A stretch of DNA of 64,000 nt from a virus: positions 52,689 to 116,688 of the IMG/VR virus record IMGVR_UViG_3300010883_000003, one strand, 5' to 3'. Below are positions 36,686 through 64,000 of this stretch, in pieces. How positions within the stretch are numbered: position 1 is the stretch's first letter; each line of letters starts with the position of its first letter. The notes under the pieces are model-generated. The model made no database searches and had not been told where the DNA came from. It saw only the letters and a program-made list of their open reading frames with translations. The translations under genes were made by a program, and so were the position numbers.

Positions 36686-38092
36686 ATGAAAAAAGCCTTA
36701 ATAGAAAGCATATCTAAGCAGTGTATAAAGCTCGTTTATAGATCTAGATTAAATGATCTCACTACAGCAGCACTTAGCGAAGGAATGACAGATGGAATTC
36801 TTTTACAGGAAGCGTTTACAAGCGAGGACGCGAACGAGTTAGAGGCTGCCACGAAAGAAATGTCTGCGGTAATTGGTTCTTTAGAAAATCGTCTTGCTGA
36901 TGCCGGCGAAGGCTGGGCACCGGTTATAGACTCTTTAAAGTCAGCAGCTGGCAATTTAGATAGTAAAGCAATCGCTCAAATGGCTCTTAGCGGCGAAACC
37001 AAAAAATTAGCTAAGGCGTCCACTGAGTTCACAAAGTCTTTGCAAAGCGTAGCGGCAGAAACGGCTGCAGTCCTTGCAGCCGTAGATGGCATAAAAAAGA
37101 ACTTATCGAATTTTGAGAAAGATGTTGGTGATAAAGGTGGTGAGACCATCGCAGCGTTATCGGACTCAATCGAGAAGTTCCCAGATATCTCTAAGCTAGA
37201 TAAAGGTATAAGCAGCGTGTATCAGATACCAAAGTGGTTTGATTCCGCTTGGGCTGACGGCTCGAAGGCAGCCGAGAGCGAAACAGAGGGGGGCTTTTTT
37301 AAGAAAGCAATGGCATTTGTTGGTGGTATGTTTAAAGCCGATAAGACTGGCCGCTTAGTTGATGCGAAAGTGTTAGCTGATGCTGTTAAGGCAACGTCTT
37401 TCACCGCGTTAATGGATCTGGATGTGCAAGGTGAAGTAGCAGCCTTAACTCAAGGCGCTGAAACTGCTGGTACCGAGTCAACAGAACTGGCTGCCGCCGG
37501 CGCTGGTGGTGCTGAAGGTAGCGAGGGTGGTGAAGACGACGCCGGCGGCAACGAAACCGAAGACGGCGTTACTGTTGCTACAGAAGAAGAAGCAGAAGAA
37601 GAGCAAGCTGCCGCTGAAGAAGAATTAACTGCCGCCGCTGAAGAAGTTGTCGCAGAGCCTGAGTCACCAGGCGTAGCTATCGCAAACGCTCTTGATACTT
37701 GGGCTTCCTCGTTATCTAAGTCTTCACAGTCTGCATTAGCAGCAAAGAAGAGGTTAGACAGTCTTAAGACAGGTGTTGCTGCCTCTCTAGAGAAAGCAGC
37801 TGCTGCGGTTGAATCTGAGGTTGCTGGTGCTGTACAGGCTTGGCGAGCAGAAAACGAAGAAACGCTAATGAAGAGTAAAAGGTTCGCCAAGAAGAATTTT
37901 GATGCGCTTGAAAAAGTCATTCCTCAAATTGCGTCAGTTATGTTAAAGAAAACATCTGAGACTAAGATAAAAATGACGAAAGGCATGGTACGTAAGTCTG
38001 TCTTTAATTACCTCGATAAGCAATTTGCGAATGAAGGTATCTTATTTGAGTCAAAAAGATGGCAGTCTCTAGCAGGTATGGGGAGAAAATAA
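36686..38092 (+). CDS. Large Ala/Glu-rich coiled-coil protein, probable internal head or scaffold component
   Basis: ATG 36686 with GGAG upstream; 468 residues. The N-terminal helix (MKKALIESISKQCIKLVYRS) is followed by long heptad stretches. A low-complexity acidic Ala/Gly/Glu region lies at ~residues 250-315, and helices with a basic end follow. The C-terminal ESKRWQSLAGMGRK matches a small motif (R-W-x-x-(I/L)-A-G) also present at 41057. It opens the block of unknown, often L-x-E-tagged genes. A scaffold or core-protein role is inferred from composition only. Confidence 0.5.
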   Translation: MKKALIESISKQCIKLVYRSRLNDLTTAALSEGMTDGILLQEAFTSEDANELEAATKEMSAVIGSLENRLADAGEGWAPVIDSLKSAAGNLDSKAIAQMALSGETKKLAKASTEFTKSLQSVAAETAAVLAAVDGIKKNLSNFEKDVGDKGGETIAALSDSIEKFPDISKLDKGISSVYQIPKWFDSAWADGSKAAESETEGGFFKKAMAFVGGMFKADKTGRLVDAKVLADAVKATSFTALMDLDVQGEVAALTQGAETAGTESTELAAAGAGGAEGSEGGEDDAGGNETEDGVTVATEEEAEEEQAAAEEELTAAAEEVVAEPESPGVAIANALDTWASSLSKSSQSALAAKKRLDSLKTGVAASLEKAAAAVESEVAGAVQAWRAENEETLMKSKRFAKKNFDALEKVIPQIASVMLKKTSETKIKMTKGMVRKSVFNYLDKQFANEGILFESKRWQSLAGMGRK

Positions 38093-38500
38093 ATGTCTTC
38101 TACTAATACAAGGTTTCTATCCGAAATGCTACGAAACCAATATGTCGGTCGTCTTAACGAAGTTATAAAAGAAGCTGATGTATTCGATGATGAAGGCAAT
38201 ATGATATTGTCACCTGACTTAAAAGTGAAACACCGTGACTCTGGTTATGAGTATACTATAGATCATGTTGAAGGTGATACCGACAATGAGATACAAATTT
38301 ATCTTAGGTCACCTGAGTCACCGAGAGTTCACCCGGCCCCTGAAGAAAAGTCGCTGTTAGGCGAACCGCGACAGGAAGATATACTAGGTGAGCAAGATCC
38401 CGCAGCAAATATAGAGGAAGAGTTACCAAGCGAAGATCAAGAAGATGTGATCTTTGTCATCAACCAACAAGAATTTGAAAAAGAGTATGAGGTAGATTAA
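38093..38500 (+). CDS. Acidic protein of unknown function
   Basis: 135 residues, starting at the base after the preceding stop. The N-terminal helix (FLSEMLRNQYVGRLNEVIKE) resembles the tag found in neighbouring proteins. A short beta region (DLKVKHRDSGYEYTIDHVEG) and a long acidic tail rich in Glu/Pro follow. No known motif was recognised. Confidence 0.55.
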   Translation: MSSTNTRFLSEMLRNQYVGRLNEVIKEADVFDDEGNMILSPDLKVKHRDSGYEYTIDHVEGDTDNEIQIYLRSPESPRVHPAPEEKSLLGEPRQEDILGEQDPAANIEEELPSEDQEDVIFVINQQEFEKEYEVD

Positions 38501-39228
38501 TGTCAACAATCAGTGATAAAGAGATTATGAAAGTTATTAGCGAAACGTTAGGTGTCGATGACATGTCTTCTCGTAAGAGCAAGCCTTTAAATGAGGCATA
38601 CGTACTTGAGCCTAAGAAGTATGACATTCAAACCGATATCTTAAGCCAAAAAGCAATAAGTGCAAATATCGAAGACTTTAAGTCTGCTGTTGATATAGTA
38701 AATGAAATATCTGCGAAGCTTGATTCTGTTGATAGAAGCAATTCTAATCCAAAAGACGCTGCATTCCGGGAGCTAAAATCAGCAGAAGCCTACAATCTAA
38801 ACTATGTTTTTCTAACGTCTCTTCATTTTGATAATATCGCAGACCCTACCTCAAAAGTTATGATGGATTCATTGTCATACATGAGATTGTCAAGAGACTT
38901 CGGAACGTTTGAAGATTGGCAGAAAGATTTTATTGCTTGTGCAATGGGGGCTCGTAATGGATATGTTGCGACTGTGTTCAACGGATCGCTGAACCGCTAT
39001 ATGAATGTCATGGTCGATGAAAATTCTTCTGGTCCTATGATGAACTGTATTCCCGTAATATGCCTGTGTGTTAAAGATAGCTTTTATTTCCGTGATTACT
39101 TAAATGACCGTAAAGCCTACATCTTCGCAATGATGAAAGAGTTAAGGTGGTCTTTAATTGAGGAAAGATTTAAGCGCGCCGACAAGCTTTCAAAAATCAT
39201 GTCTAGGCCATTAGGAGATAACTCATGA
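38500..39228 (+). CDS. Unknown protein, folded domain with tag-like start
   Basis: The 242-residue product starts with the KEIMKVISETL helix and then a basic stretch (SSRKSKPLNEAYVLEPKKYD). The rest is a mixed alpha/beta domain of normal composition. It overlaps the previous stop by one base and the next start by four. Position and start pattern place it with the probable virion proteins of this block. Confidence 0.5.
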   Translation: MSTISDKEIMKVISETLGVDDMSSRKSKPLNEAYVLEPKKYDIQTDILSQKAISANIEDFKSAVDIVNEISAKLDSVDRSNSNPKDAAFRELKSAEAYNLNYVFLTSLHFDNIADPTSKVMMDSLSYMRLSRDFGTFEDWQKDFIACAMGARNGYVATVFNGSLNRYMNVMVDENSSGPMMNCIPVICLCVKDSFYFRDYLNDRKAYIFAMMKELRWSLIEERFKRADKLSKIMSRPLGDNS

Positions 39229-39848
39229 AAAGAGAACAACTAAAGAATTATTTTAGGAAGCAATACAGCTTGCTAGCAGAGCAAGATGAAGAAGATCCAT
39301 TCGCGACAGATGATGCTGCAGCCGACGAAGAGCCAGATGATGCTGCAGCCGACGAAGAGCCAGCCGACGATACTGGTGAAGAAGGCGAAGACGAAGACGA
39401 AGGCGAAGGCGAAGATGAAGATGAAGTAGAGGTTGATGAGGATGATGAACAGCGTTTTCAAAAGTCTATAGATGATCAACTCCAGGCACTCCTAATAGAC
39501 ATTGAGGCTGACTCTATCAAGTCTGCAGTAGTACAGCAAGAAAGCTATAGCCTAAAGCAAATGTATATAAATGAGTCTGGCGATGTACCTATCGATACAG
39601 ATAAGTTTGCATCTGAGGTTGCCAGGCTAATATTAAATTTTGACGCTTTCCTTGATCTTGAAACGATGCTATTATCTAAAGTTAGAAGCTTTCTGGTAGA
39701 CAAGCATGGCGAAGAAGCTGCTGACGAAGTTGAGAAATTATTATCCGACCGTCATGATCTTAAGCGCAGAGAAGAAGTCGAAGAAGCAGATGATATAGAA
39801 GAGCAGGTTCCTATAGCTGTAGGCGCTACTCCAGGGGCGGGTGTGTGA
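39225..39848 (+). CDS. Highly acidic L-x-E-tagged protein
   Basis: The product is 207 residues. It starts with KREQLKNYFRKQYSLLAE, an amphipathic basic helix ending in L-A-E. Residues ~20-80 are almost all Asp/Glu with Ala and Gly, encoded in part by a 27-bp tandem repeat (39309-39362). A helical C-terminal domain follows. The layout (cleavable-looking helix, then acidic segment) fits a small internal head or core protein. Confidence 0.5.
   Translation: MKREQLKNYFRKQYSLLAEQDEEDPFATDDAAADEEPDDAAADEEPADDTGEEGEDEDEGEGEDEDEVEVDEDDEQRFQKSIDDQLQALLIDIEADSIKSAVVQQESYSLKQMYINESGDVPIDTDKFASEVARLILNFDAFLDLETMLLSKVRSFLVDKHGEEAADEVEKLLSDRHDLKRREEVEEADDIEEQVPIAVGATPGAGV
39309..39362 (+). repeat. 27-bp tandem repeat (2 copies) in an acidic coding region
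   Basis: Two identical 27-bp units encode DDAAADEEP twice, in frame. They are followed by GAA/GAC/GGC-rich low-complexity sequence. Replication slippage is the likely origin. Confidence 0.85.
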
Positions 39849-40123
39849 GTGATTTATTCGTAGTAAGGAAATCTGTCCATATTAACCTTATGAAAGAAAC
39901 CCACGCAGAGCTCAGAGTTCTGGCTTTTAGAAAAAAGCTCTCTATGCAATCGATAGTCGAGGGTTTGGTTTCAAGATTAGTTAACGGTGACCCTACTTTG
40001 AGTAAAATGGTAAATCAGATGGCGGAAGAAAAATATAAAGTTGAACTTCGGAAAGTCGTTGGTACTGATGCTAGTAGTGTATACGACATTCTTGAAGGTC
40101 TAGATTCTATAAAGGACAATTAA
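39845..40123 (+). CDS. Ribbon-helix-helix-like small regulator
   Basis: GTG start with a GTGA overlap to the previous gene. In this 92-residue product, residues ~8-45 fit an RHH fold: strand RKSVHINLM, helix ETHAELRVLAFRKK, then LSMQSIVEGLVSRL. RHH proteins bind operators as dimers. It may regulate this operon or act on the host. The regulatory role is inferred from the fold. Confidence 0.55.
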   Translation: MSDLFVVRKSVHINLMKETHAELRVLAFRKKLSMQSIVEGLVSRLVNGDPTLSKMVNQMAEEKYKVELRKVVGTDASSVYDILEGLDSIKDN

Positions 40124-40374
40124 TGTTTTGGTCAAATAACTCGAGAAGACTTAAATCACTAGAAGATAAAGTAGATCAGCTTGAGAAACAAAACGCGATT
40201 TTTGTTTTAAGCATGCAGAACATTCAAGCTGCATTACTGAGTGCCTCTAATCTACAACAAGCTGTCGCCGGCGACGTTAGAGAGATACAAGACTTGATAA
40301 ATTCCATACTGCAACAAGCTGAACAAGCGTCAACGTTACATGGTTTTGACCCAGGCGATGGGTATGAGCACTAG
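40123..40374 (+). CDS. Small coiled-coil protein
   Basis: The 83-residue product is nearly all coiled coil (LKSLEDKVDQLEKQNAIFVL, REIQDLINSILQQAEQ). Start ATG 40123 shares a base with the previous stop. No function was recognised; it lies just before membrane proteins of the probable lysis group. Confidence 0.5.
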   Translation: MFWSNNSRRLKSLEDKVDQLEKQNAIFVLSMQNIQAALLSASNLQQAVAGDVREIQDLINSILQQAEQASTLHGFDPGDGYEH

Positions 40375-40418
40375 CGTTCATAATAATTAGAGTAAAATCA
40401 CTTGCGGAGAAAATAGAG

Positions 40419-41056: not shown

Positions 41057-42034
41057 GTGAGTAAAAAATTATCGTTAAAAAGCGCGCTACTCGGAGAAGT
41101 AGAAGCAAAAAAAATATCTGGCCGAGATTTTAGGAAGTTAATTCTCGAGCAAGTTTCTTTTCTTAAAGAGCAAGACACACCCGGTGTTACTGGGGGTACT
41201 AAATTTACAGAACAGTCAAACTTCAAAGATTTTGACGATGCTATGATAGATGAGCTTTTTGCCCAAATTAAGACTCGAGATATGAGTCAGCCGATATTCG
41301 GAGCAATGTGGGAAGCGGATCCTGATAAGACTGCTGACTGGCTCGCGAGCAAAGGTGAAGACGCAGTACGCGAAAGAATTAAGGCCGTCGCCGCAAAGAT
41401 TCCAGCTACAGGACTGCCTAAGTCTGAAATGCCGTTTCTGCCAGGCCCTCCAGACGCTGCAGGCGAAGTTGCTGACGTTGTAGATGCTCTTTCACCGGGC
41501 GGTAAAATAAACATTGACTTTAAAGAATCTAAAAAATCTAAGTCTAATGATCTTATAACAGAGAGATGGGGAAAAATAGCAGGTATACTTCCACTAAGCG
41601 AGATCGCACCACCAAGTAAAGACTCTCTAGCACCCGGTACTCCTGAAACTGAAGAATACCTCACATCTGGTAACGAAGAAAATGATGGCAAGGCAGATGA
41701 CGATGACGCAAATATCAACCAGCCAGCCCAAGTCGCTGCCGCCGACGCGATTCCAACACAATCGAATATATTAATACCGAAGGCACTAGGAATGGCAGTC
41801 GGAAGTGGGGGAAACCCTCCTGTAGAAGGTGGCGACATGGGCGCTTATTTCTCCACAGACGATGAGATCCTCGACGGTCACCACCGCTGGGCTGCCACGA
41901 TGCTGAACAACCCAGGTGCTTCTATAGGCGGTTTCGCAGCGATTGATTTAAAGGCTATGGGTGGAACCGAGCAGGCTCTAAAACACTTAACAGCACTCGG
42001 TAACGCTCTGGGTAACAAGACTAAAACTTCATAA
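41057..42034 (+). CDS. Tagged protein with ParB-like DGHHRWAA motif
   Basis: GTG start with GGAG eight bases before; 325 residues. The N-terminal helix (DFRKLILEQVSFLKEQ) follows the L-x-E pattern. An acidic/Pro-rich middle contains LITERWGKIAGIL, the R-W-x-x-I-A-G mini-motif. The C-terminal domain has ILDGHHRWAATML, the G-H-H-R signature seen in ParB/sulfiredoxin-like domains that bind nucleotide or DNA. The exact activity is unknown. Confidence 0.5.
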   Translation: MSKKLSLKSALLGEVEAKKISGRDFRKLILEQVSFLKEQDTPGVTGGTKFTEQSNFKDFDDAMIDELFAQIKTRDMSQPIFGAMWEADPDKTADWLASKGEDAVRERIKAVAAKIPATGLPKSEMPFLPGPPDAAGEVADVVDALSPGGKINIDFKESKKSKSNDLITERWGKIAGILPLSEIAPPSKDSLAPGTPETEEYLTSGNEENDGKADDDDANINQPAQVAAADAIPTQSNILIPKALGMAVGSGGNPPVEGGDMGAYFSTDDEILDGHHRWAATMLNNPGASIGGFAAIDLKAMGGTEQALKHLTALGNALGNKTKTS

Positions 42035-42589: not shown

Positions 42590-43597
42590 ATGTCTAGAAA
42601 CTTTAAGAAATTCCAACGAGAGATCGATTCGCTGTTATTCGAAGACTCGTACGTCACTCATGGTACAATAGATAATCTAAGGGCTGGTAACATAGATATA
42701 TCACTAGATGATGAAGATCCTGATATAGATTTGCCCATAGAACCGGGTCCTCAAGCTGCATCACAATTATCACATGATGTTCCTCCCGTAGAAGATCCTG
42801 AATACATACCAGCTAACAGCAAAGAGTTATCTAAGGCGCTAGCTGCGCTAGCCGTAGATATACCAGACAAAACAAGCATAGTTCAAAAAACATACGAAAA
42901 ATTTAAAAAGTTTGTGGACGATTCCCAAGAGGAGAGTATTGACGTGGACAACCAAGAATCAAAAGTAGAAGAAGCAAGAAAGCTTATTAAGAATCAACTG
43001 TTAATAAACATCATGAAAGAGCAGATGCAAGACCGTGATGCATACGGTAACCGTTATGACGACGAAGATCCGCTTGGAGATCTAGACGGTCCATCACCGG
43101 AAGAGCTTGAAGCAATGGAAACTCCATCGCCGAAAAAAGCAGAGCCTACAAAAGATGAGTCTACACTGGCTGATTTAGCGAAAGACATGGGGCTAAGCAC
43201 GTCAGGTGTTAAGAGACTAGAGGCTGAAGCTGTCAAAAAAATGAGGCTGTTTGCAGTACACTTTCCAGATGATGCTGACGGCGTAAAAGAATTAGCAATG
43301 AGATATTACGCTAAAGGACTCTACGAGCTGGAGCTAATAGACGCTGAAGAGGCCGCTGACCTAATGTCTGCTACACATGCATATGAGCTTCATTCGTTTA
43401 GGCAGTTCATGTGGGATAGCTTCCTAAACAACGTGTATAAAAAGATGTTGCGTGATGCCGACGCTCAAGGCATATCTGAAGATAATCTTGCTGACTTACA
43501 ACCCGGCCTTCTTGATAGGGCAACAAGTTACTTCAATGGATTACCTGATACGAAGAAAATGAAAGTATTAGTTTCTTCGCTCGGAGCCGCGGAATAG
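42590..43597 (+). CDS. Tagged protein with sigma-region-4-like helix-turn-helix
   Basis: ATG 42590 behind GAGG; the in-frame GTG upstream is not used. The product is 335 residues. The N-terminal tag-like helix is FKKFQREIDSLLFED. A long acidic region follows. Residues ~191-222 (STLADLAKDMGLSTSG, then VKRLEAEAVKKMRLF) match the sigma70 region 4.2 helix-turn-helix pattern, which binds the -35 element. The C-terminal ~100 residues form a separate helical domain. It may be a DNA-binding protein delivered with the virion. Whether it binds RNA polymerase is unknown. Confidence 0.5.
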   Translation: MSRNFKKFQREIDSLLFEDSYVTHGTIDNLRAGNIDISLDDEDPDIDLPIEPGPQAASQLSHDVPPVEDPEYIPANSKELSKALAALAVDIPDKTSIVQKTYEKFKKFVDDSQEESIDVDNQESKVEEARKLIKNQLLINIMKEQMQDRDAYGNRYDDEDPLGDLDGPSPEELEAMETPSPKKAEPTKDESTLADLAKDMGLSTSGVKRLEAEAVKKMRLFAVHFPDDADGVKELAMRYYAKGLYELELIDAEEAADLMSATHAYELHSFRQFMWDSFLNNVYKKMLRDADAQGISEDNLADLQPGLLDRATSYFNGLPDTKKMKVLVSSLGAAE

Positions 43598-43600
43598 AAA

Positions 43601-43999
43601 ATGAAAGTAAGCACTTTGATGAAAGACTACCTGGATAAGGGATTGCTCAAGGAACAAACTGTTTCTCGTGGTTTCCTACCTAAGTCTTTCGTCACCCAAA
43701 GCGACTTGCCTCTTCAACCGGTTGAAAATAAATGGGTATATGTTACTGATCCCGAAAGACTTTTAAGATCTTACAAATTCGATAATAGCCGGCAGAGGTC
43801 TTTGTTCATAGAAGAGTTGATGAACGCAGAAGAGCAACACGGTCATAACGCAAAGATAACGATCACAGCGAACGAAGTTCTAGTAGAGGTATGGACCCAT
43901 AGTATAAATACGGTAACGGAGCTTGATCAAGAGTACGCCTCAGTCTGTGACGAGTTGTATAACGATGTATCACTGATAGGTTTTGATTATGAATATTAA
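43601..43999 (+). CDS. Pterin-4a-carbinolamine dehydratase-like protein
   Basis: 132 residues. A short tag-like helix (MKDYLDKGLLKEQ) comes first. The PCD fold then shows SLFIEELMNAEEQHGHNAKI, then LVEVWTHSINTVTELDQEY, matching the AE-x-x-H-H-P and TH-x-x-G-L-T-x-x-D positions, although Pro and a second His are changed. PCD proteins recycle pterin cofactor or act as transcription co-factors. The altered active site and structural neighbours suggest a non-enzymatic or virion use. Confidence 0.6.
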   Translation: MKVSTLMKDYLDKGLLKEQTVSRGFLPKSFVTQSDLPLQPVENKWVYVTDPERLLRSYKFDNSRQRSLFIEELMNAEEQHGHNAKITITANEVLVEVWTHSINTVTELDQEYASVCDELYNDVSLIGFDYEY

Positions 44000-44459: not shown

Positions 44460-44613
44460 TAAATTCATAAAAGACCTTGAAAAAAGGCAAAAAGAAAAAA
44501 TAGCCAGAAACCAGATTAAGCAACAGGATATTCCTTGCTCTACCAGACAAAGGGTTCATTTTTACGCCGAAAAATGGCAGAACTCTATAAAATATTCTGG
44601 AGAAAAGAAATGA
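44446..44613 (+). CDS. Short basic protein
   Basis: A 55-residue protein with GGAG five bases before ATG 44446. It overlaps both neighbours and ends in an ATGA with the next gene. It is rich in Lys/Arg/Gln and predicted helical, with one Cys. No known motif. Confidence 0.5.
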   Translation: MPSFDKFIKDLEKRQKEKIARNQIKQQDIPCSTRQRVHFYAEKWQNSIKYSGEKK

Positions 44614-45473
44614 AAAAAATAGACCTAGAGCTTATCTCGCAACGTATCGCTAGTCAAATACTCTCTGAAGAGTTTTCTACAGAAAAAGATAGACAGCAAA
44701 TGGTATCGAAACAAATCGCCAGTTCCGGTCTCGAAGCCCCGCAAAAAGATGAAGAAGATAAAGAGAAACTCACAGATGAAGGTGAGGATGAAGAGGAAGA
44801 AGATGTTGAGATAGAGCCAAAAGCCAAGCCAGATGATACTGAAGACAAAGATTCTGGTGATGATTTTGAAGTTGAAGCTGTAGAAAAAGTTCCTGAAAAT
44901 ATAAGTTTCGATGAAATTAAGAAGCAGATCAATAATTTAAGGGCTGGTAAGAGTCTAAAAGATGAAGCGATATCTTCACAGCTTGAAGACTACTACGATA
45001 AACTAGGGATGGCTGAAGAACGATCATTATACGTCTTCTTGAGTTCTTTAGGTGCTATTCTTACTGGCGGTACGCTAGGCGAAGAAGCCCCAAGACCAGA
45101 AGGTATGGGTGTTGACATAAGCATAAGAAAGAAGAAAGAAAAAACAAAAGATAATATGTCTGGTATCCGTGGTGTAGATAAAGATGGCGCTCAAGCTCCA
45201 ATAGTCGTTGGCGAATCAGCAGACACCATAAGCTACAAACTACGCTTACTAGAGAGCATAACTAGCGATGATAAGCACCGGTGCTTAAACGGCAAATTAA
45301 CAAACTTTGGATCCGAAAAATGTGTCTCCGACATTACATCGCGAATAGAAGATGCAGTATTTAATAGAGACAAATGCTCTCAAGGATCGGCTGATAGATC
45401 AAGCTTGAATGGCACCTTGAAATATCTTAGGCAAAAACTTCGCCGTGCGAATAAGATATCGGCCATTAAGTAA
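44610..45473 (+). CDS. L-x-E-tagged protein with acidic linker
   Basis: The product is 287 residues. It starts MKKIDLELISQRIASQILSE, an amphipathic helix ending in L-S-E. A strongly acidic region (residues ~50-105) and a folded C-terminal domain follow. The last ~60 residues are basic with two Cys (DDKHRCLNGKLTNFGSEKC). It probably belongs to the same internal-protein set as its tagged neighbours. Confidence 0.55.
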   Translation: MKKIDLELISQRIASQILSEEFSTEKDRQQMVSKQIASSGLEAPQKDEEDKEKLTDEGEDEEEEDVEIEPKAKPDDTEDKDSGDDFEVEAVEKVPENISFDEIKKQINNLRAGKSLKDEAISSQLEDYYDKLGMAEERSLYVFLSSLGAILTGGTLGEEAPRPEGMGVDISIRKKKEKTKDNMSGIRGVDKDGAQAPIVVGESADTISYKLRLLESITSDDKHRCLNGKLTNFGSEKCVSDITSRIEDAVFNRDKCSQGSADRSSLNGTLKYLRQKLRRANKISAIK

Positions 45474-46294: not shown

Positions 46295-46521
46295 ACGTAG
46301 ATGAGATAATTAATGCTGCTATAGATTTAGGGACTAAATGTGACATTGAGTCATGGATAGACTTAAAGAAGATCGTTTTAATCAGCATACCGTCAAAAGA
46401 TCGGTCTTTATTTTCTACAAGGGATCCAAAAACAAAAGAACAAAGTCTGAATCAGCTAGAGCATGCCATCATTAGCAGCTATGAAGAAAGAACAGGGATT
46501 AAACTTAGGATATCAGAATGA
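46291..46521 (+). CDS. Small helical protein
   Basis: 76 residues from GTG 46291, coupled to both neighbours by 4-bp overlaps. Charged, helical, no motif recognised. Confidence 0.5.
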   Translation: MNVDEIINAAIDLGTKCDIESWIDLKKIVLISIPSKDRSLFSTRDPKTKEQSLNQLEHAIISSYEERTGIKLRISE

Positions 46522-47744
46522 ATAGAGATAACGAAAATTTTATTAGAGAAGAAGTCAAGAAAATTCTTAGTGAAGAAAAAAAGATCCTAAACGAGCTGTC
46601 ATGGGGTGATGATGATTCTTCTTATGGCGGTGGTCCAGAGCTTCAGGTATTTAACACGATATTTCAACCGTTTGTAGATGTTTTTAACGTCGCAACTGTT
46701 GCGTTACAAGATATAGCTTCTATAACAATGGATGTCACCAAATATGCTTTTACATTCGACGATGAAAAGCGTAAAAATATAAAAGAGCGGTATAGACAAC
46801 GTAGAAAAAAATACAAAGAGAAGATGGGTAAAGCTTTTAAATCCACAGAAGATATTTTTAATAACGAAGATGTCCAGATGCTTGCACTACTCGCAAACCC
46901 TGGAGCTGTTTTTACAAAAAAAGCGGCGGAGATGGTATGGTCCGGTTCTGAGCCAATAAGAGACCAGGTAGAAGAACAGTTTGGTGGAATGTTAGGCATC
47001 GGCGACCGCGACATCGCGTCAACGACTGATAGAGATAAATCTCCAGCACTATTTGCCGATCTAAAAAGAGCTTTCTTTGGTGAGGGCCTTGATGAGATTG
47101 ATGATATAGAGTTTATATTACTAGAGCAAGAAAAAGAAGCTGATGCCGGACCTGCACCATCCACTGCGGAAATACAAGAAGAAATTAATGACTTCCTGGT
47201 AAGGAGTGGCAAGCAGGAAGAGTTTAGTGCCATGTGGAATGAAATCATCAGTGATAAAAAAGCTGAGATTGAAAATATTCTAAAAGAAAAAGGCGAGCAA
47301 ACTACACTTCTTGGCGAGCTATCCGTATCTGAATCTGTCCAGAGTGCTGAGAAAATAATAGCTTCACTCAAAGCTGTAGACGTTGACTTGTCTGAAGTAT
47401 TCGGAAAAGTAATAAAAGAAATTGAGTCACAAGTTGCCATGATAAAAGACGGCGGCCCAGAAGCTGAAAAAATTATGAAAAGTCTTAAGAAACACCCAGA
47501 TGCTGCATCAATCGCAGAAGACGCTCCAGTAGAACAGTATTATCCTCTCATCGAAAGAGGTCTTTTAGCAACTGCATTCGGAGAAGCAGTCAATGACGCA
47601 AAGACAGCGGGCGTTGGCGAGCTATTGGGACTAGTTGCAGAAGTAAGTAAAGATGATCTTGCTCAAATTGCCGCGCAAGGTCCAGAGGGGAAAGAGTACT
47701 CTGATCTAATATTCTCTTTTCGTGATGAGCTACTAAGCATTTAA
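46518..47744 (+). CDS. L-x-E-tagged helical protein
   Basis: The product is 408 residues. It starts with NFIREEVKKILSEE and a second LxE-like ILNE within 25 residues. Residues ~40-130 hold an apolar helix and a very basic stretch (KERYRQRRKKYKEKMGKA). The remaining ~270 residues are helical and mostly acidic. There is no recognised domain. The tag, size and placement suggest an internal head or ejection protein. Confidence 0.5.
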   Translation: MNRDNENFIREEVKKILSEEKKILNELSWGDDDSSYGGGPELQVFNTIFQPFVDVFNVATVALQDIASITMDVTKYAFTFDDEKRKNIKERYRQRRKKYKEKMGKAFKSTEDIFNNEDVQMLALLANPGAVFTKKAAEMVWSGSEPIRDQVEEQFGGMLGIGDRDIASTTDRDKSPALFADLKRAFFGEGLDEIDDIEFILLEQEKEADAGPAPSTAEIQEEINDFLVRSGKQEEFSAMWNEIISDKKAEIENILKEKGEQTTLLGELSVSESVQSAEKIIASLKAVDVDLSEVFGKVIKEIESQVAMIKDGGPEAEKIMKSLKKHPDAASIAEDAPVEQYYPLIERGLLATAFGEAVNDAKTAGVGELLGLVAEVSKDDLAQIAAQGPEGKEYSDLIFSFRDELLSI

Positions 47745-50198: not shown

Positions 50199-50361
50199 AA
50201 TTCAACACCTTCGCGCAACAGGTATATTAAGCGAAAGTGAGATCGCCGCTAAAAGCGGTGACTTGATTATTGCGATCGACGTTGTGACTCATATTAGAAG
50301 AGTTATCACTGTTGAGAACTTAGCAGAGGGCTCTTCTGTGAAGAGGTTGTTGAAAGGATGA
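50170..50361 (+). CDS. Small protein preceding groEL
   Basis: 63 residues, starting inside the FEN gene (29-bp overlap) and coupled by ATGA to groEL. It occupies the place where groES is usually found, but at 63 residues (LSESEIAAKSGDLIIAIDVV) it is too short and lacks the GroES mobile loop pattern. Function unknown. Confidence 0.55.
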   Translation: MEETTLPNDKIQHLRATGILSESEIAAKSGDLIIAIDVVTHIRRVITVENLAEGSSVKRLLKG

Positions 50362-51944
50362 TCGAGCAAACATACAAGGTTATAACATTCGGCGCAGATG
50401 CACGAGAAAAAATAAAAGTCGGTGTTGAGCAGCTTACGGATGCAGTAAAAGTCACTATGGGGCCTAGCGGAAATAACGTATTAATTGAACAACCTAATAG
50501 CGCCCCCATTTTGACAAAAGACGGAGTTACAGTTGCTAGAGCAATTCATCTAAAAGATAGGTTCGCGAACCTCGGCGTCCAACTTGTCCGTGAAGCTGCT
50601 CAAAGAACAGCAGAAGAAGCCGGCGATGGTACGACAACAGCAACGGTATTGGCAAATGCGTTGTATCAAGAAGGACTTAAGGCACTGTCTGCTGGTCATG
50701 GTTTGAGAGAGATAAAAGAGGAAATGCTAGTAGCATCTAGAGAGCTATGTGATGAAATTCAAGCCGCATCTACACCAGTAAGCTCTGATGAAGACTTACA
50801 AAAAGTCGCGAATATTTCTGTAAATCATGAGTCTGAATTAGCTAATTTAATAGTAAAGGCTATCAAAGCCGTCGGTGACCATGGTACAGTGACCGTTGAT
50901 GAAGCTAAGGGCTTTGATAGCTCTCTAGAGGTCGTAGATGGTTGTGAACTTGACAGAGGATATACTTCACCTTATTTCGTCAACAAGCCTGCCAGAATGG
51001 CGTGTGAGCTTACAAACCCCGCTATATTGATCACTGATCAAAAGATCTCCTCAGTATCTCACATCATGCACTTTATGGAAGAGTCTGCAAGAATTGATAG
51101 GCCTTTTGTGATAATTGGTTCAGAAACAGCAGGGGAGGCTATGCAGGCCTTGATAATGAATACCACAAAGGGGAACATAAAGTCTTGTGTTCTGGCCGCA
51201 CCAGAATTTGGTGGCGCTCGCTTAGAAGCGTTAAGAGACCTTTGTGTACTTCTCAATACAGAGATGCTAACTGGTGATCCTTCATCATGGCGTGATAAAA
51301 AGCTGTCTGATCTTGGTGGATGTAAAAAGTTAAATGCATTTCGTTTTCGTACTATATTCGTGGGCGCAAAAGGAAGCAAAAAGAAATGTAAGCAACGTTC
51401 GGACGAGATTAAGTCTGCTATGAGATCAGCTGACGACGAGATGAACCAGATCCTAAACAGACGACTACGTCGCTTAAATAGCGGAATTGGAATCTTGCGT
51501 GTTGGAGGATCAACAGAAGCTGAAATTGGAGAAAGAAAAGACAGAGTAGAAGATGCGCTATATGCAACAAAAGCTGCTATGCAGGAAGGTGTCGTAGCTG
51601 GTGGCGGCTCGCTACTGGCAAAGCTTGCAAAGAAAAAGTTGGATTCCGACACGAATTTATCTCCGGGAAGAGTAGTTGTATATAAGGCAGCATGTGAACC
51701 ACTTCGACAAATTGTGTCTAATTGTGGATCCGTTCCTGATATTATTTTAGAAAAAATAAGTGAAAAACCTGATGGATTTGGCTATAATGGAATCACTGGA
51801 GAAATTTGCGATTTGTTGGCTGAGGGAGTAATCGACCCAGTTCGTGTTACTAGGTTAGCGCTACAAAACGCTACAAGCGTTTCGGTCAATTTGTTGTCTA
51901 TTGGTTGTTCTATGATTGAAGATAATACTGAAAAAGATACTTAG
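50358..51944 (+). CDS. groEL: GroEL-like chaperonin
   Basis: The 528-residue protein is collinear with GroEL. Equatorial domain: VTMGPSGNNVLIEQ, LTKDGVTVARAI, and the ATP-binding EEAGDGTTTATVLA with catalytic Asp90. Apical domain: residues ~190-370, including DRGYTSPYFVNKP. Second equatorial half: GGSTEAEIGERKDRVEDAL and EGVVAGGGSLL. The C-terminal GGM repeat is missing. It probably folds phage proteins in a double ring, using the host GroES or no co-chaperonin. Confidence 0.92.
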   Translation: MIEQTYKVITFGADAREKIKVGVEQLTDAVKVTMGPSGNNVLIEQPNSAPILTKDGVTVARAIHLKDRFANLGVQLVREAAQRTAEEAGDGTTTATVLANALYQEGLKALSAGHGLREIKEEMLVASRELCDEIQAASTPVSSDEDLQKVANISVNHESELANLIVKAIKAVGDHGTVTVDEAKGFDSSLEVVDGCELDRGYTSPYFVNKPARMACELTNPAILITDQKISSVSHIMHFMEESARIDRPFVIIGSETAGEAMQALIMNTTKGNIKSCVLAAPEFGGARLEALRDLCVLLNTEMLTGDPSSWRDKKLSDLGGCKKLNAFRFRTIFVGAKGSKKKCKQRSDEIKSAMRSADDEMNQILNRRLRRLNSGIGILRVGGSTEAEIGERKDRVEDALYATKAAMQEGVVAGGGSLLAKLAKKKLDSDTNLSPGRVVVYKAACEPLRQIVSNCGSVPDIILEKISEKPDGFGYNGITGEICDLLAEGVIDPVRVTRLALQNATSVSVNLLSIGCSMIEDNTEKDT

Positions 51945-52467: not shown

Positions 52468-53229
52468 ATGATCTTAGATACATATTTCGAAAACGTTGGA
52501 AAACATTCTCTTCTTTCAAGGGAGGAAGAAGTTGAGCTAGCAAAAGCTATAGAGGCAGGCGATCAGCGCGCCCGCAACAAGATGATTGAGTCAAATCTTC
52601 GTCTTGCCATCTCGATTGCAAAGAACTTTCGAGACAAGGGGTGTTCTTTTGAAGACCTGATCCAAGAGTCAAATCTTGGACTGATTAGAGCTGTTGATAG
52701 GTTCGATTGGCGTAAGGGATTTAAGTTTTCTACATACGCTGTTTGGTGGATTAGACAGGCTGTGCAATCTCATGTCGCCGGACAATCTGGCGCGATTAAA
52801 ATGCCTACATCGGCACGAGCCATTATGTACAAGGCGTCTAAGTTCAAGGAAGAATACTCTGAAGAGTTCGGATGTGATCCTTCGCCAGCGGAAGTTGCAG
52901 CGTCGGTTGGCATCCCCGTTGATACATTACGGTCTATCTATAAGTCAGGCTCCACCGCGATGTCTTTGGATCGTTCGATGTCTCCAGATGATTCTGGCGG
53001 TCGTACTTTTGCCGAAGTTGTAGGTGGGGTTGATGATACTGATCCTGGTGAGGAAATGGATAAGACTGCTATCAGAAATATCCTTATTACTGCGCTTAAA
53101 AAGCTAACGCCTCGAGAAGAAAACATTATTAGGCTTAGATTTGGATTGTCTGAAGATCCAGAAGACCACGTAAAGTTTCCTGTTACCAACACTATGAAAA
53201 ATGAAATTATCGCAAGGAGTTCACGATGA
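52468..53229 (+). CDS. Sigma70-family factor lacking region 4.2
   Basis: The 253-residue protein has region 1.2 (YFENVGKHSLLSREEEVELA), region 2 (RLAISIAKNFRDKGCSFEDL, GLIRAVDRFDW, FSTYAVWWIRQAVQ), region 3 (PSPAEVAASVGIPVDTLRSI) and the first part of region 4 (LKKLTPREENIIRLRFGLSE). It then stops after ~20 further residues, where the -35-binding helix-turn-helix should be. The stop overlaps the next gene (ATGA at 53226), which encodes an HTH of the expected kind. It may therefore work as a two-piece factor. Confidence 0.88.
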   Translation: MILDTYFENVGKHSLLSREEEVELAKAIEAGDQRARNKMIESNLRLAISIAKNFRDKGCSFEDLIQESNLGLIRAVDRFDWRKGFKFSTYAVWWIRQAVQSHVAGQSGAIKMPTSARAIMYKASKFKEEYSEEFGCDPSPAEVAASVGIPVDTLRSIYKSGSTAMSLDRSMSPDDSGGRTFAEVVGGVDDTDPGEEMDKTAIRNILITALKKLTPREENIIRLRFGLSEDPEDHVKFPVTNTMKNEIIARSSR

Positions 53230-54411: not shown

Positions 54412-55086
54412 ATGCGCAAAAAAATTATTACAGTTTTGTCAAACCCCATAGCTCTTCGCCGAAAGTGCGTACCGTTCCCAGATAATAAAAACTTCACAGA
54501 AGATCATAAGCTATCAATTAAAGACTTGAAGGATACGTTTGATATCGTACAAGGATATGGTTTAGCGCTACCGCAGATTGGCATTTCTAAAAGAGCAGTT
54601 GTGGTAAGTTTCCCCGCGTTAGGTCTTAATCCTGAGCTAGGTAACGTTGTAATGATTAATCCTGAAATTGAAACGTCCGGCGACACTTCTAGATTTGAGG
54701 AGTCGTGCTTTTCGGTACCCCACATTTCTGCGAATGTCAGCAGATACACGACCGCAACAGTAAGATATACTTCTGAGTCTGGTGAACTATGCGCTCTACC
54801 TCTAGAAGGATTTCCAGCTGTGTGCCTACAGCATGAGATAGATCATCTAGACGGCTTAACTTTTCTTAACAGAGTTGGTAACGTATGGCGGTCTATGTTA
54901 ATGAAAAAGATTAATAAAATAGAGAAGCGTCATAAAGCAGAAGAAAAATTAGCGAAGGACTCATTTGAGCAAGAACACAAAGAGATAATGGGCGTTTCTG
55001 CAAAAAAGAAAGTCACTGGTCATTCAAAGAAAAGAAAGCCGAAGCCCAGAAAAAAGCGCCTTAGCAAGTCTAAAAAGAGAAGTTAA
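54412..55086 (+). CDS. def: Peptide deformylase with basic C-terminal extension
   Basis: The product is 224 residues. Motif 1 is GYGLALPQIG. Motif 2 reads ESCFS where most bacterial enzymes have EGCLS, with the metal Cys kept. Motif 3 is LQHEIDHLDG with the metal His pair and catalytic Glu. It removes the formyl group from new proteins. A Lys/Arg-rich tail of ~55 residues (for example KKRKPKPRKKRLSKSK) after the catalytic domain is unusual and may bind ribosomal RNA or DNA. Confidence 0.9.
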   Translation: MRKKIITVLSNPIALRRKCVPFPDNKNFTEDHKLSIKDLKDTFDIVQGYGLALPQIGISKRAVVVSFPALGLNPELGNVVMINPEIETSGDTSRFEESCFSVPHISANVSRYTTATVRYTSESGELCALPLEGFPAVCLQHEIDHLDGLTFLNRVGNVWRSMLMKKINKIEKRHKAEEKLAKDSFEQEHKEIMGVSAKKKVTGHSKKRKPKPRKKRLSKSKKRS

Positions 55087-56615: not shown

Positions 56616-57704
56616 ATGCCAGGTAATAATAAAGACGATCAATACATAAACACTCCGGTTGCCGATGACGATGATTTCGATTTCGTAATTGCATACGATG
56701 ACGATCCTGTCGAAGGTGATGAAAGACTTTTACCTGATAATACAGCTCGTACTGCATTAAGCTGCGGATTTGTAGGAGTCGGAGGCGGCGGTGGTAAATT
56801 AGCAAATGCATTTTTAAGCATCGGTTATAACAAGACACTTTTAGTAAATACAACTGAAAAAGACCAGCCGGGTGGTTTACAGCAGAGTCATTTTATTCTA
56901 GTTCCAGGCGCCGATGGTGTCGGTAAAGATGTTAATTTAGGAAAGCAAGTTCTTAGTGAGAACAGCGCTCTAGTTGAAGACGCGATCAGGACTCGTATAG
57001 GTAAGGTGGATTGGTTGTTTGTTTTAGCTGGCGGCGGTGGTGGCACCGGCTCAGCATGTCATGAGCTGCATGGTTCTTTAAGCAGGTATCTAGAGTCCGT
57101 TGAGGCATCCGGACAGGTTGTATATATCGTTTCTAAGCCAACTGCTCAAGAGCTATTAAATCCCGCGATATCTAATAACTACAAATCTTTGATGGGGGAT
57201 ATCAAAGACTTGCCTCATATCGTTATCGATAATGAGAAGCAACTGCAGCTGCTACGAGGTAAGGTGGGAATGTTGAATATGTTTCCATCCGCAAATAAAA
57301 ACTTTGCAAAGTTGTTTGGGCAAATCTTAAAGCTGGCCGATGAGCATACAGAGATCCAAACTTTTGATAGCAAAGATTTGGAGCGATGTCTATCTGCTCC
57401 TGGTCGTATTGTTATTGGATCTACAATCATAAAAGATGTAAATAGAAACGACTTAGGTTCGCTTGTATATCAAGGCTGTCTTCGCTCTTCGCCCTGCCCT
57501 GCCCCAGCGGGTAACGCAGCGACAGGAACCCTATTACTTATCGTCGATGGAGATATGGCAGCAGATCCAGACGTTAGCCGCAGACTCGAATCTGCATTTT
57601 CTTATGTAGGGGGACGAGCAGATGTACTGTTCTCTGGCGTCTATATTAAAGAGAGAATACCTGGGCTAATTGCTCTAACAATGCTCGGTGGACTAGAACA
57701 GTAA
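56616..57704 (+). CDS. Tubulin/FtsZ-like GTPase
   Basis: The start is uncertain: ATG 56616 has GGAG upstream, while a TTG at 56520 would add 32 residues. The 362-residue product has an acidic N-terminal extension, then the nucleotide-binding GFVGVGGGGGK (residues ~49-60), the NTTEKDQ strand end, and the signature loop LAGGGGGTGSA (~137-147), where the usual final Gly is Ala. The T7-loop region TFDSKDLERCL carries acidic residues, then a long C-terminal domain follows. The family polymerises with GTP. In phages such proteins (PhuZ, TubZ) position DNA or an intracellular phage compartment. This copy is not obviously PhuZ. Confidence 0.8.
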   Translation: MPGNNKDDQYINTPVADDDDFDFVIAYDDDPVEGDERLLPDNTARTALSCGFVGVGGGGGKLANAFLSIGYNKTLLVNTTEKDQPGGLQQSHFILVPGADGVGKDVNLGKQVLSENSALVEDAIRTRIGKVDWLFVLAGGGGGTGSACHELHGSLSRYLESVEASGQVVYIVSKPTAQELLNPAISNNYKSLMGDIKDLPHIVIDNEKQLQLLRGKVGMLNMFPSANKNFAKLFGQILKLADEHTEIQTFDSKDLERCLSAPGRIVIGSTIIKDVNRNDLGSLVYQGCLRSSPCPAPAGNAATGTLLLIVDGDMAADPDVSRRLESAFSYVGGRADVLFSGVYIKERIPGLIALTMLGGLEQ

Positions 57705-60713: not shown

Positions 60714-60719
60714 AGTTTT

Positions 60720-61622
60720 ATGAAAGAACTAAAAGAGCTTATATCTTTTATATTATCGGAAAGTTTTCAAAGTCATACCTTTGAACCGGTTATCGGTGAT
60801 ATTGTCGCTAATGATAATCCAAATTGCAAGCATAGGGGATCGGTGGGTGAAGTATTGTCTGTCCAGCCTCTACCCAGCGATGCAGGTAAAACAGCAACAT
60901 ACAGATGCTTAAATTCTGGAGAGAGCTGGGGTGCGGGAGAGTTGTTAACAAAAACGCTTGACCAGCTTGTACCTGCTGTCTCAACACACTTTGCGGATCT
61001 TATAGAAAGTAACATTCCAATCACTGAGTGTACTCTAGATAAAAGTGGTCTAGCGTTTAACCGACTTATAGCTGAGTCGAAAACGTTAATAGCTAGAGGT
61101 GCGTACAAGCCCTCTATAGAGGAAGTGTGTTATATATATGGCCAGTCTCACACCGCAAATATAACGGAAGACTTGCTTAGAAGTATTATTCGCCAAGCGA
61201 TCATCGGCGAGAAAAAGAACACGCTTTGGGGAAATATCGCTGCTAAGAAAGCCCGTGGCGAAAAGCCGGCGAAGAAGGGCGATCCTGATTATCCTGATGA
61301 AAAATCTTGGAAAGCAGCTCAAGAATCAGATGATACAGATGATGACGATCTTAACGAAGCAGAGTACGACGGCAGGAAAGTAAAGGTTAATAAGCCTACA
61401 GCTATCCGAAAGGGACAGACTGGCTACGGAAAGAAGCAAGACAAAGTTTATGTTAAGGACGGTCCAGAGGAAGATGACGTAAAAGTTGTCCGTTTTGGTG
61501 ACCCCGATTCTGAAATTAGAAGAGATAACCCAGCAGCAAAAAAGAACTTCCGCTCTAGGCATAACTGTGATAACCCAGGACCTAAAACAAAGGCTCGCTA
61601 TTGGTCTTGTAAGGCCTGGTAG
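60720..61622 (+). CDS. Doubly tagged phage protein with C-terminal conserved Cys domain
   Basis: The product is 300 residues. The first tag KELKELISFILSES is followed by a small beta domain (residues ~20-85). A second tag-like helix, LLRSIIRQAIIGEKKNTLWG, sits near residue 150, followed by a Lys/Gly/Pro-rich segment. The last ~75 residues (YDGRKVKVNKPTAIRKG, then RHNCDNPGPKTKARYWSCKA) are of a type seen at the end of several marine phage proteins. Two possible L/I-x-E cut sites could release the C-terminal domain. Confidence 0.6.
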   Translation: MKELKELISFILSESFQSHTFEPVIGDIVANDNPNCKHRGSVGEVLSVQPLPSDAGKTATYRCLNSGESWGAGELLTKTLDQLVPAVSTHFADLIESNIPITECTLDKSGLAFNRLIAESKTLIARGAYKPSIEEVCYIYGQSHTANITEDLLRSIIRQAIIGEKKNTLWGNIAAKKARGEKPAKKGDPDYPDEKSWKAAQESDDTDDDDLNEAEYDGRKVKVNKPTAIRKGQTGYGKKQDKVYVKDGPEEDDVKVVRFGDPDSEIRRDNPAAKKNFRSRHNCDNPGPKTKARYWSCKAW

Positions 61623-61650
61623 TTAGTCAATCATTAATGAGGATTTAGCT

Positions 61651-61977
61651 ATGTATGAATACAGAGCGTTTGTAAGAAAAGTATACGACGGTGATACTGT
61701 TACAGTAGATATCGATCTTGGTTTCGACACTATACTTAAAGCTCAAAAAATACGTCTCACTAAGATAAACGCTCCAGAAATCCGTGGTGACCAAAGGGAA
61801 GCGGGTCTCAAGTCTCGTGACGCTCTACGTACTAAGATTGGGAACAAGTGGATAAAGATCAAAACTCAAAAAGACAAAAAAGGCAAATGGGGTCGCTGGT
61901 TAGGCGAGATTTGGCTAGAAGAAGAATGTGTTAATGACTGGCTATTAAACGAGGGTCTGGCAGAGCTGTACAAATGA
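61651..61977 (+). CDS. Staphylococcal-nuclease-like protein
   Basis: 108 residues. It has VYDGDTVTVDIDLGF, KIRLTKINAPEIRGDQREAG and GRWLGEIWLEE, matching the calcium ligands, the Arg and the D/E residues of SNase. No signal peptide is seen, so it would act inside the cell or in the virion. It overlaps the next tagged gene by 4 bp. A DNA- or RNA-degrading role is likely. Confidence 0.82.
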   Translation: MYEYRAFVRKVYDGDTVTVDIDLGFDTILKAQKIRLTKINAPEIRGDQREAGLKSRDALRTKIGNKWIKIKTQKDKKGKWGRWLGEIWLEEECVNDWLLNEGLAELYK

Positions 61978-62426
61978 AAATCACAAGAAGAAGACTAGTA
62001 GAGATGATTAGGGAAGCTATGGACCCGATTCGGGTGAAGACCCTTGCCCCCGAAGATTTTGATCCTCCTGTCTGGTCCGACGCGACAGAACCAAAGTCAA
62101 GTGAGATCCCACTTAAAAAAGTCGGTAATTTCTTTATGACAAAAACGGATGCAGAAAGACTTCCCAAAAGAGGCTATGGCGCCGTGAAAAAGCTAAAAAA
62201 CTTTTATATGGTACTACCTGACGGTGACGGAATTAAAATAGGACCGTTCCCAGGTGAACCAAGCATTGCTAAGGTCAAAGACGGTGTAAGGTATCTAGAA
62301 GCACTAGATGCTGCAGTGGATGTGTTACCTGTCGGTGATGCCCTCAAACCCTCACAGGAAGATATGCAAAATATGCTGGCGATGCAAGATCAAATCATGG
62401 CTGTTGCAAGAGGGTTTAGTTTATGA
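61974..62426 (+). CDS. Tagged protein of unknown function
   Basis: 150 residues. It begins MKITRRRLVEMIREAM, the most typical form of the tag helix. The remaining domain is mixed (KKVGNFFMTKTDAERLPKRG, FYMVLPDGDGIKIGPFPGE). No motif recognised. It overlaps the next gene by ATGA. Confidence 0.6.
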   Translation: MKITRRRLVEMIREAMDPIRVKTLAPEDFDPPVWSDATEPKSSEIPLKKVGNFFMTKTDAERLPKRGYGAVKKLKNFYMVLPDGDGIKIGPFPGEPSIAKVKDGVRYLEALDAAVDVLPVGDALKPSQEDMQNMLAMQDQIMAVARGFSL

Positions 62427-64000
62427 GCGTCGATATCCGACATCTCCGCGAATGTATAAGAGAAATACTAACGAAAGAAAGTCTCTTAGCAGAATCGCAG
62501 GTGAATTTTGGTACCTACACTGTCAATATCTTACCTGAACTTCAGAGTGCTAGAACCAGCGCTGTAGTCCTTGATTTGTCTGACGTCGTAATTGACGATG
62601 GTACCGAAAAAATAATTAACCCCGCACAGGCTCAAAAGCTTTCGAATATTATGCTTATCAGGGTAATAATAGACTCGTTAGAAGGGGGTAAAGCAGCTCG
62701 TCTTGGTGACATGACGGAAGCTCTAACTACTACCCTATTTTCCGATGCGCAGAATATTAACCAATGGGGTGTCGCTGGAAATATGGCATTTGCAGATATA
62801 GAGTCTGGAGGTAATTATTATAGTGTAAAGTATTTTAAGGACTCCCTTCGCGACCAGAAAATAACCTACAGCAAAATAGCTACGCTCCTTGGCGAACTTG
62901 AGAGTCGTGAAATGGAGTCACCGCGCAGCAGATCCTTTGGTATTTTTGCTGCAACACCAAGCAAGGACAGCGACTCTATTGATTTTAAGACCTACGGTCC
63001 TGAAGCTAGCACGACATGGCTAAGAATGGCATCTAATAAAGCAGAAGTACCTTATGAACAAGCGAGCATCCTCAGTAAGAAGGATAGCAAAAGCGAAGAA
63101 GAAGCTGAAAACTGGAGTAAAGTGTCTCAAGCCAAGTGGGGCATCAAAATGCTGAATAAGGCTGAAATTGCTACGACAGCCGGCTCAATAAAAGTTCCGT
63201 CTGCTGACGATATCAATACTGAACTTACGAAGTTATCACAATTCACGAAAGACTCAAACCCATACTCTACATTCGTCAAGAAAATGATGAAAGGTGAGGA
63301 TCCACTTGAAGGTGACCAGTTAAAAACTGTTTCTGGAGCCTACAAAAAGGTAAGTGGCGACCTCGCGACGAATCTTGGTTCCTTTGTAACGAACGCTAGC
63401 GATGGCACGACAAAGGACCGCGTTGAGATGGGAAAAAGTGTTAATGCACTGCAAAAAACATTACGCTCCTCGTTTCAGGATGGTGTACCAGATAAGGTCG
63501 ATCCTGAAAAACTTAAGAAGGTTATCGCTGCGCTTAAAAAAGCTGAAGAAGAAGTCGATATCGCAGACAACAAGTCGGATAATAGGGTTAATTTTCAAAC
63601 TGAGTCATTACGTGAGTATATAAGGGAGAGCCTTCTAACCGAAGGAATTGATTTTCATGAGCTTGACTCGCCGCTCCGCTATAATAAGTCAGGGAATGTT
63701 AAGAGACTTGCTTATTGCGATTCAAGCGTTTCAGAACCCCCCGCATCACGAGACGCATATTTTAAAGAGTATCAAGAGATGCAAACTTTCGGTAAGAGTG
63801 GGCGCAGACTAAAGAAAGCTCGTAAGGGTGAGCTGATACCAGGTGTCTCGAATGTTTGTATTATCGGATTTTTAGACTTTCACGAATATGGAGAGAACGG
63901 ATGGTACATCGACTACATGAAAACGCGAGGTGATGCTAGCGGTCAAGGCGTTGCTAGTAAGCTGATGGATGAGTTTTTCGCCCGATACGCAAAGCCAGGC
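62423..64000 (+). CDS. Long tagged protein with an internal second tag and GNAT-like domain (3' end outside window)
   Basis: The frame is open from ATG 62423 to the right edge (526 codons seen). The N-terminus is HLRECIREILTKESLLAE. The middle ~370 residues are of unknown fold. A second tag helix, SLREYIRESLLTEGI, sits at residues ~395-409. After it comes a region ending in IDYMKTRGDASGQGVASKLM, which matches the acetyl-CoA loop pattern R-G-x-x-x-G-x-G of GNAT acetyltransferases. It looks like two tagged proteins joined in one frame, possibly separated by cleavage after LLTE. Confidence 0.65.
   Translation, partial: MSVDIRHLRECIREILTKESLLAESQVNFGTYTVNILPELQSARTSAVVLDLSDVVIDDGTEKIINPAQAQKLSNIMLIRVIIDSLEGGKAARLGDMTEALTTTLFSDAQNINQWGVAGNMAFADIESGGNYYSVKYFKDSLRDQKITYSKIATLLGELESREMESPRSRSFGIFAATPSKDSDSIDFKTYGPEASTTWLRMASNKAEVPYEQASILSKKDSKSEEEAENWSKVSQAKWGIKMLNKAEIATTAGSIKVPSADDINTELTKLSQFTKDSNPYSTFVKKMMKGEDPLEGDQLKTVSGAYKKVSGDLATNLGSFVTNASDGTTKDRVEMGKSVNALQKTLRSSFQDGVPDKVDPEKLKKVIAALKKAEEEVDIADNKSDNRVNFQTESLREYIRESLLTEGIDFHELDSPLRYNKSGNVKRLAYCDSSVSEPPASRDAYFKEYQEMQTFGKSGRRLKKARKGELIPGVSNVCIIGFLDFHEYGENGWYIDYMKTRGDASGQGVASKLMDEFFARYAKPG

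Follow-up and report, generated by a model that had tools for sequence, protein, structure and literature searches.

Unrelated proteins of a large uncultured phage share a short N-terminal tag resembling a capsid-targeting propeptide

The window analyzed here is a stretch of 64,000 nucleotides of viral DNA (IMG/VR record IMGVR_UViG_3300010883_000003), corresponding to positions 52,689-116,688 of the 116,688-bp contig G000. Gene calling over the window and the portion of G000 upstream of it yielded 117 proteins, and many unrelated ones begin with a short tag ending in [LI]xE. Proteins are named below by the first nucleotide of their open reading frame (ORF) in the window, and a slash marks the putative cut site or, in lists of orthologues, separates their sequences. 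The ten proteins of the initial annotation (10759, 12227, 39225, 41057, 42590, 44610, 46518, 60720, 61974, and 62423), in which these N-termini were compared with the capsid-targeting sequences of T4, begin at true ORF starts on the plus strand, most of them behind a Shine-Dalgarno-like site, and all ten carry an [LI]xE site within the first 38 residues of a short, basic, amphipathic N-terminus. The proposed form L-R-x-x-I-R-x-x-L does not fit the spacing in 39225 and 44610, some tags exceed 10-20 residues (site as far as residue 38), and 10759 and 12227 lie outside the interval 36686-64000 to which the set had been assigned. Additional tagged proteins were 38093, 38500, and 43601 in the window, with 36686 as a weaker candidate, and two further ones upstream in the head operon, L003:12686 (G000:31686-32102) and L003:13154 (G000:32154-32429).

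Relatives were sampled via the major capsid protein, which gave 80 IMG/VR loci from a group of large, uncultured phages that, judging from a few record titles, is apparently mostly marine. The motif search in related phages that had been put forward as a check revealed tag arrays, i.e., runs of consecutive unrelated genes sharing the tag, with a common 14-22 residue consensus over whole arrays. The array genes start with MKITKRQLRRIIKE(EKARLLxE) or MxLLREYIRxLLxE; in the closest large contigs, type A reads MKITKRQLRRIIRE or MKITKRQLRRIIKEEKARLLxE, and type B corresponds to the second of the two starts. The type A DNA pattern had 24 matches in G026, 21 in G032, and 18 in G021, type B had at most 10 matches per genome, and the type B control matches numbered 1 in total. 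The strict type A pattern matched at least 120 stretches in the viral collection. Across 257 billion bases of bacterial and archaeal genomes it had just 7 matches, of which at least some lie on phage-like contigs. Long tag arrays were also present on contig C5 of G032 (NHDW01000006.1, 305,838 bp) and on PBIO01000025.1, which are binned as Methylococcaceae and Halobacteriovorax metagenome-assembled genomes and look like misbinned phage genomes. Neither tag pattern occurred in Xanthomonas phage XacN1 or the 484-kb LR756508, a tblastn search of the short tag against cultured phages gave no match, possibly due to low-complexity masking, and a search for cultured phages with the superoxide dismutase (SOD)-like cargo or the head-operon core gene gave none useful. 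The tag string was not found in openly licensed PMC papers. Full orthologues in a relative were detected for eight of the ten proteins named above; 61974 had none, and the match of 62423 was limited to its C-terminal cargo part. Contig G000 ends just at the onset of the array genes (61974 and 62423). The tags of the window are given in Table 1.

Table 1. Tags and candidate tags in the window
Feature	Position	Strand	Tag end and remarks
Tag of ORF 10759-11316	10759..10806	+	MNEDKLRVYIRKMLAE/G; 4 orthologues
Tag of ORF 12227-12445	12227..12268	+	MQNLREIIRRILLE/E; best type B profile score in G000 (25.4); orthologues
Candidate tag of ORF 36686-38092	36686..36781	+	LSE/G at residue 32; composition less typical
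Tag of ORF 38093-38500	38093..38173	+	End VIKE/A, residue 27
Tag of ORF 38500-39228 (SOD-fold protein)	38500..38595	+	End LNE/A, residue 32
Tag of ORF 39225-39848	39225..39281	+	MKREQLKNYFRKQYSLLAE/Q, end LLAE/Q; orthologues LVE/LRE/LRE
Tag of ORF 41057-42034	41057..41170	+	KISGRDFRKLILE/Q at residue 31, LKE/Q at residue 38, reading ...ISGRDFRKLILE/QVSFLKE/Q; type A score 12.8
Tag of ORF 42590-43597	42590..42643	+	MSRNFKKFQREIDSLLFE/D; 5 orthologues
Tag of ORF 43601-43999 (pterin-4a-carbinolamine dehydratase family)	43601..43654	+	LLKE/Q; PF01329 1.7e-13
Tag of ORF 44610-45473	44610..44669	+	MKKIDLELISQRIASQILSE/E, end ILSE/E; orthologues LLLE
Tag of ORF 46518-47744	46518..46574	+	MNRDNENFIREEVKKILSE/E, end ILSE/E; second site LNE at residue 26
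Tag of ORF 60720-61622	60720..60761	+	MKELKELISFILSE/S
Type A tag of ORF 61974-62426	61974..62015	+	MKITRRRLVEMIRE/A; type A score 18.8, rank 2/117
N-terminal tag of ORF 62423-64000 (runs off contig)	62423..62494	+	MSVDIRHLRECIREILTKESLLAE/S, end LLAE/S, residue 24
Internal type B tag in ORF 62423	63608..63643	+	LREYIRESLLTE/G, residues 396-407, directly before GNAT-like cargo

The putative cut-site residue of the tags is conserved between orthologues. Because Glu 14 of type A was imposed by the search rule, the independent orthologue comparisons carry more weight. In the tag of 42590, M1 and E18 were the sole invariant columns over five orthologues, and over eight orthologues of the SOD-like 38500 invariance began at E32. 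The P1 Glu and a hydrophobic P3 were kept with a free P2 in four orthologues of 10759 (MLAE/MILE/MLTE/ILLE/ILLE) and in those of 46518 (ILSE/ILLE/ILAE/ILHE). The AlphaFold2 model of 38500 had a helix at residues 6-17, disorder at residues 22-32 up to E32, and then the SOD fold; the model of 42590 was too poor for use. Among the type A tags with a Glu following the first site, 79 of 112 (71%) had a second [LIVM]xE at most 12 residues downstream, compared to a background of 20%.

A T4-type head operon was located on G000. Its genes include those for terminase, gp20 portal (E 2e-76), S77 protease, and the gp23 capsid protein, together with one for a scaffold-like protein and two small tagged ones. 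The gp21-like protease that had been predicted to lie elsewhere in the genome was thus present between portal and scaffold (S77, G000:30567-31181; PF03420 E 2.7e-27 at G000:30651-31076). The scaffold-like protein was designated from its position, acidity, and N-terminus resembling T4 gp22, and had no family match. When 75 capsid proteins were aligned with the T4 cut SFLTE/A at residues 65/66, the L of the site was present in 72 of them and the E in 74, whereas the residue between the two varied; since LxE stands at the capsid site in this lineage, its protease should prefer LxE. The S77 prohead protease of G005 (L479:1367-3076, minus strand) and G012 (L480:1207-2874, minus strand) is apparently split by an intein at GEC/...TGN/CDHP, and the insertion point adjoins the presumed catalytic His motif.

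The two small tagged proteins of the head operon, L003:13154 and L003:12686, are located between the protease and the scaffold, in the neighborhood where the prohead-core genes lie in T4. A profile was trained on 168 cargo tags from other phages after exclusion of core homologues and genome G018; the initial training set had included homologues of the core genes, and the result held without them. In all seven array-poor genomes searched, where no tag array was detected, this profile matched the two proteins or their positional counterparts with scores of 6.3-21.7, compared to a maximum of -0.4 among 904 control N-termini and a 99.9% point of 2.7 among 6887 internal segments, and the pair ranked within the top four proteins of these genomes (one of the pair only in G007 and G011). 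In an ungapped alignment, KLTPSLLRRIVLEEKKKIMET of L003:13154 is matched with KITKRQLRRIIKEEKARLLSE. The match concerns type A; type B as a sequence copy of L003:12686 was rejected, with the type B profile ranking this protein 5 to 103. The tags thus apparently copy prohead-core N-termini, which suggests that they originated by cargo imitating the address of the core.

Targeting to the head and cleavage are supported by the conservation of the residue at the putative cut site, the capsid protein's own LxE, and the match to head-operon proteins. The tag is therefore, with high probability, a capsid-targeting propeptide removed by the protease, working like that of T4 with a sequence of its own and many more cargoes per genome. 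The alternative that survives best, an uncut helix docking onto another phage or host complex, such as the replication or transcription machinery, with LxE as a mere helix end, is in keeping with the frequent use of amphipathic helices as docking motifs and with the many cargoes that have no virion-related annotation. It is nevertheless unlikely, as it does not account for an invariant Glu with a free neighbor, for LxE being shared with the capsid protein's own site, for the resemblance to head-operon proteins, or for the repetition of LxE that most type A tags show when their first site is followed by Glu.

The cargo behind the proposed propeptide is highly diverse and modular. The 289 tagged proteins fell into 186 cargo groups, of which 138 were singletons, and the same cargo was seen with a type A tag, a type B tag, or no tag. 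The cargo core SHTFEPVxGDIVANDNPNCKHRG of 60720 is kept in G001 and G007 behind a different tag; the pterin dehydratase-like 43601 is tagged in G000, while its orthologues in G006 and G007 begin at the domain and are untagged. Conversely, G000 has an untagged HD hydrolase at 57693, of which G023 carries a tagged homologue, and tagged proteins of the same family occur in G022 and G032. Moreover, 14 internal tag motifs were detected, mostly at junctions between two cargoes, and none in five other phages. In ORF 62423, the N-terminal tag is followed by about 370 residues, the internal tag, and the GNAT-like cargo, which G001, G002, and G026 encode as a tagged protein of its own. Most cargo lacks a known domain; those recognized include zeta-toxin/AAA kinases, DUF192, PAP2, HD_4, tRNA nucleotidyltransferase, a ribosome modulation factor-like protein, and a SprT-like protein, as well as the SOD and pterin dehydratase folds of the window. 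A PHROGs search gave nothing for the core tagged proteins of the window, and a sigma-70 region 4 match in 42590 was below the cut-off. The SOD fold of 38500-39228 has lost its metal ligands in G000 and G001 but keeps them (WEHAYY-like) in G002, G003, and G011, so that from its sequence 38500 is possibly an inactive head-cargo SOD in this branch.

Frequent recombination at the tags is implied by the arrays, fusions, and cargo swaps, which would suit tag DNA that serves as a homology cassette for gene shuffling among phages, with a minor function of the peptide. However, heterozygosity at codon positions 1, 2, and 3 was 0.20, 0.19, and 0.45 in 201 type A tags, compared to 0.70, 0.72, and 0.73 in the cargo just behind them; as variation in the tags is far greater at third positions than at the other two, selection acts on the tag peptide. 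With 194 of the 201 DNA copies also distinct, a cassette in place of a functional peptide is very improbable, although an added role in recombination may still exist. The tags could also be membrane-targeting helices, since membranes can be bound by basic amphipathic helices at protein N-termini, but this reading does not explain why the tags end in a fixed [LI]xE, why internal copies lie at fusion junctions, or why head-operon proteins match, and it is considered highly implausible.

The abundance of tags was evaluated with a rule requiring a basic amphipathic N-terminus with a terminal [LI]xE by residue 28, with expectation taken from internal segments of the same proteins; because the rule was devised after the data were seen, control genomes are the fair comparison. 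It was satisfied by 18 of 117 proteins in G000 versus 4.1 expected (binomial 1.8e-7), by 30/185 in G001 (3e-11), 40/285 in G002 (6e-16), and 25/175 in G003 (6e-10), with no excess in T4 (10 versus 10.6 expected) or lambda (2 versus 2.3). Chance or a gene-calling artefact, in which N-termini were chosen to fit a common LxE, can practically be dismissed: [LI]xE is a common tripeptide found in 20% of internal 24-mers and several G000 members are degenerate, but control genomes showed no excess, the reversed type A pattern had 0 matches versus more than 100 forward, and the consensus spans whole arrays. Chance is thereby refuted for the relatives, while single members in G000 could be false.

Besides the commonness of this tripeptide, several observations weigh against a capsid-targeting propeptide. 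Hydrophobic P4/P7 spacing is present in 8 and absent in 2 of the ten listed tags, and its occurrence near N-terminal [LI]xE sites in G000 alone is suggestive only (p = 0.09), compared to an enrichment for hydrophobic P4 and P7 in G001-G003 (p 8e-9 to 1.5e-3). Acidic proteins predominate among the cargo (net charge, median -8 and -5), whereas the internal proteins of T4 are small and basic. The prohead-core identity of L003:13154 and L003:12686 was assigned from position and size, and T4 gp67, tried as a source of the tag, had no similarity to the tag profile. The protease was found in all 15 tagged contigs of at least 120 kb, yet also in 4 of 6 random contigs of at least 100 kb, and its presence was discounted as proof; a second random 16-mer scan yielded no large contigs.

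On balance, the capsid-targeting propeptide remains the preferred explanation, and from these sequence comparisons we infer packaging, docking, cleavage, injection, and cargo function. The amphipathic tag helix would dock the new protein onto the prohead scaffold or core before closure of the shell, probably where the two small core-position proteins do, as the helix resembles their N-termini. The phage's own gp21-type protease would then cut after [L/I]-x-E and free the cargo inside the head, and the freed cargo would enter the host together with the DNA. In evolution, unrelated genes would have gained the tag, tagged arrays would have grown, and some genes would have fused into poly-cargo with internal tags separable by the same protease. 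A modular protein-delivery platform, in which core-mimicking tags load tens of effectors per virion, some as protease-split poly-cargo, is slightly more likely than not. If the propeptide reading holds, the tag would mark in readable form which proteins of a widespread uncultured phage group are packaged in the head, and proteins could be loaded into proheads by means of a new short tag. Hundreds of uncharacterized genes would be turned into a defined set of candidate first-minute effectors, with zeta-toxin-like kinases, HD hydrolases, GNAT-like proteins, a tRNA nucleotidyltransferase, and SOD-fold proteins already among them. Given the proposed protease activity, the fused proteins would be poly-cargo cut apart in the head.

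Elsewhere in the window, genes for a DnaE-type DNA polymerase III alpha and a UDP-galactopyranose mutase lie at 25898-29512 and 30585-31727, and a GroEL-type chaperonin, a sigma-70 factor, and a peptide deformylase are phage-encoded at 50358-51944, 52468-53229, and 54412-55086. A tubulin/FtsZ GTPase domain match at 56616-57704 was weak and below the cut-off (PF00091, E 9e-5).

Among known systems, the closest is that of the T4 proteins IPI-III and Alt, with which the tagged proteins share a short N-terminal propeptide, the (L/I)-x-E motif, a gp21-family protease, T4-type portal and capsid genes, and unrelated mature domains behind one leader, with probable agreement also in the hydrophobic P3/P4/P7 spacing. 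In the ten-residue leader of T4, residues 4 and 7 are needed for targeting and residues 8 and 10 for cutting (PMC9026906). These residues of MKTYQEFIAE/A correspond to P7, P4, P3, and P1, and L8, I11, I12, and E14 of type A stand at the same positions. The leader sequence itself differs, the T4 proteins scored at background with the new profile, and the dozens of array cargoes, their acidity, the resemblance to core-position proteins, and the fused poly-cargo with internal tags are also unlike T4. Of the testable defining features of the T4 capsid-targeting system, the leader sequence was absent, the P4/P7 spacing was no more than suggestive in G000 alone, and the others were all found. Each of T4 Ip1-3 blocks a different GmrSD restriction enzyme, with the leader alone common to all (PMC12373910), which by analogy might be a fair model for the small tagged-protein arrays. 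The internal-protein genes of other T-even phages are likewise unrelated, with the packaging leader alone in common, and at least 10 have been reported versus tens per genome here. The inner-body and ejection proteins of phiKZ and SPN3US (gp175/gp245 cut) resemble the presumed cargo described here in that they are packed into the head in bulk and that each of their N-terminal propeptides has several cut sites, but there an S80 protease, S/A-x-E sites, and mostly long cargo-specific propeptides are used, in contrast to S77, LxE, and one short common tag. Redundant cut sites are known from propeptides of giant phages (PMC5694885), and the type A tags with a second site resemble them. In Flavobacterium phage immuto, a distant S77 phage, four proteins (L186:1803, L191:3762, L191:17587, and L191:18588) carry the repeated leader MENFDLKKFLVENKLTxNSxLLxE, mostly with an [LI]xE end and unrelated in sequence, which is possibly another packaging tag. 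The tags described here would thus belong to a known kind of system, T4 capsid targeting, and what is new is its larger scale and apparent origin by imitation of core proteins.

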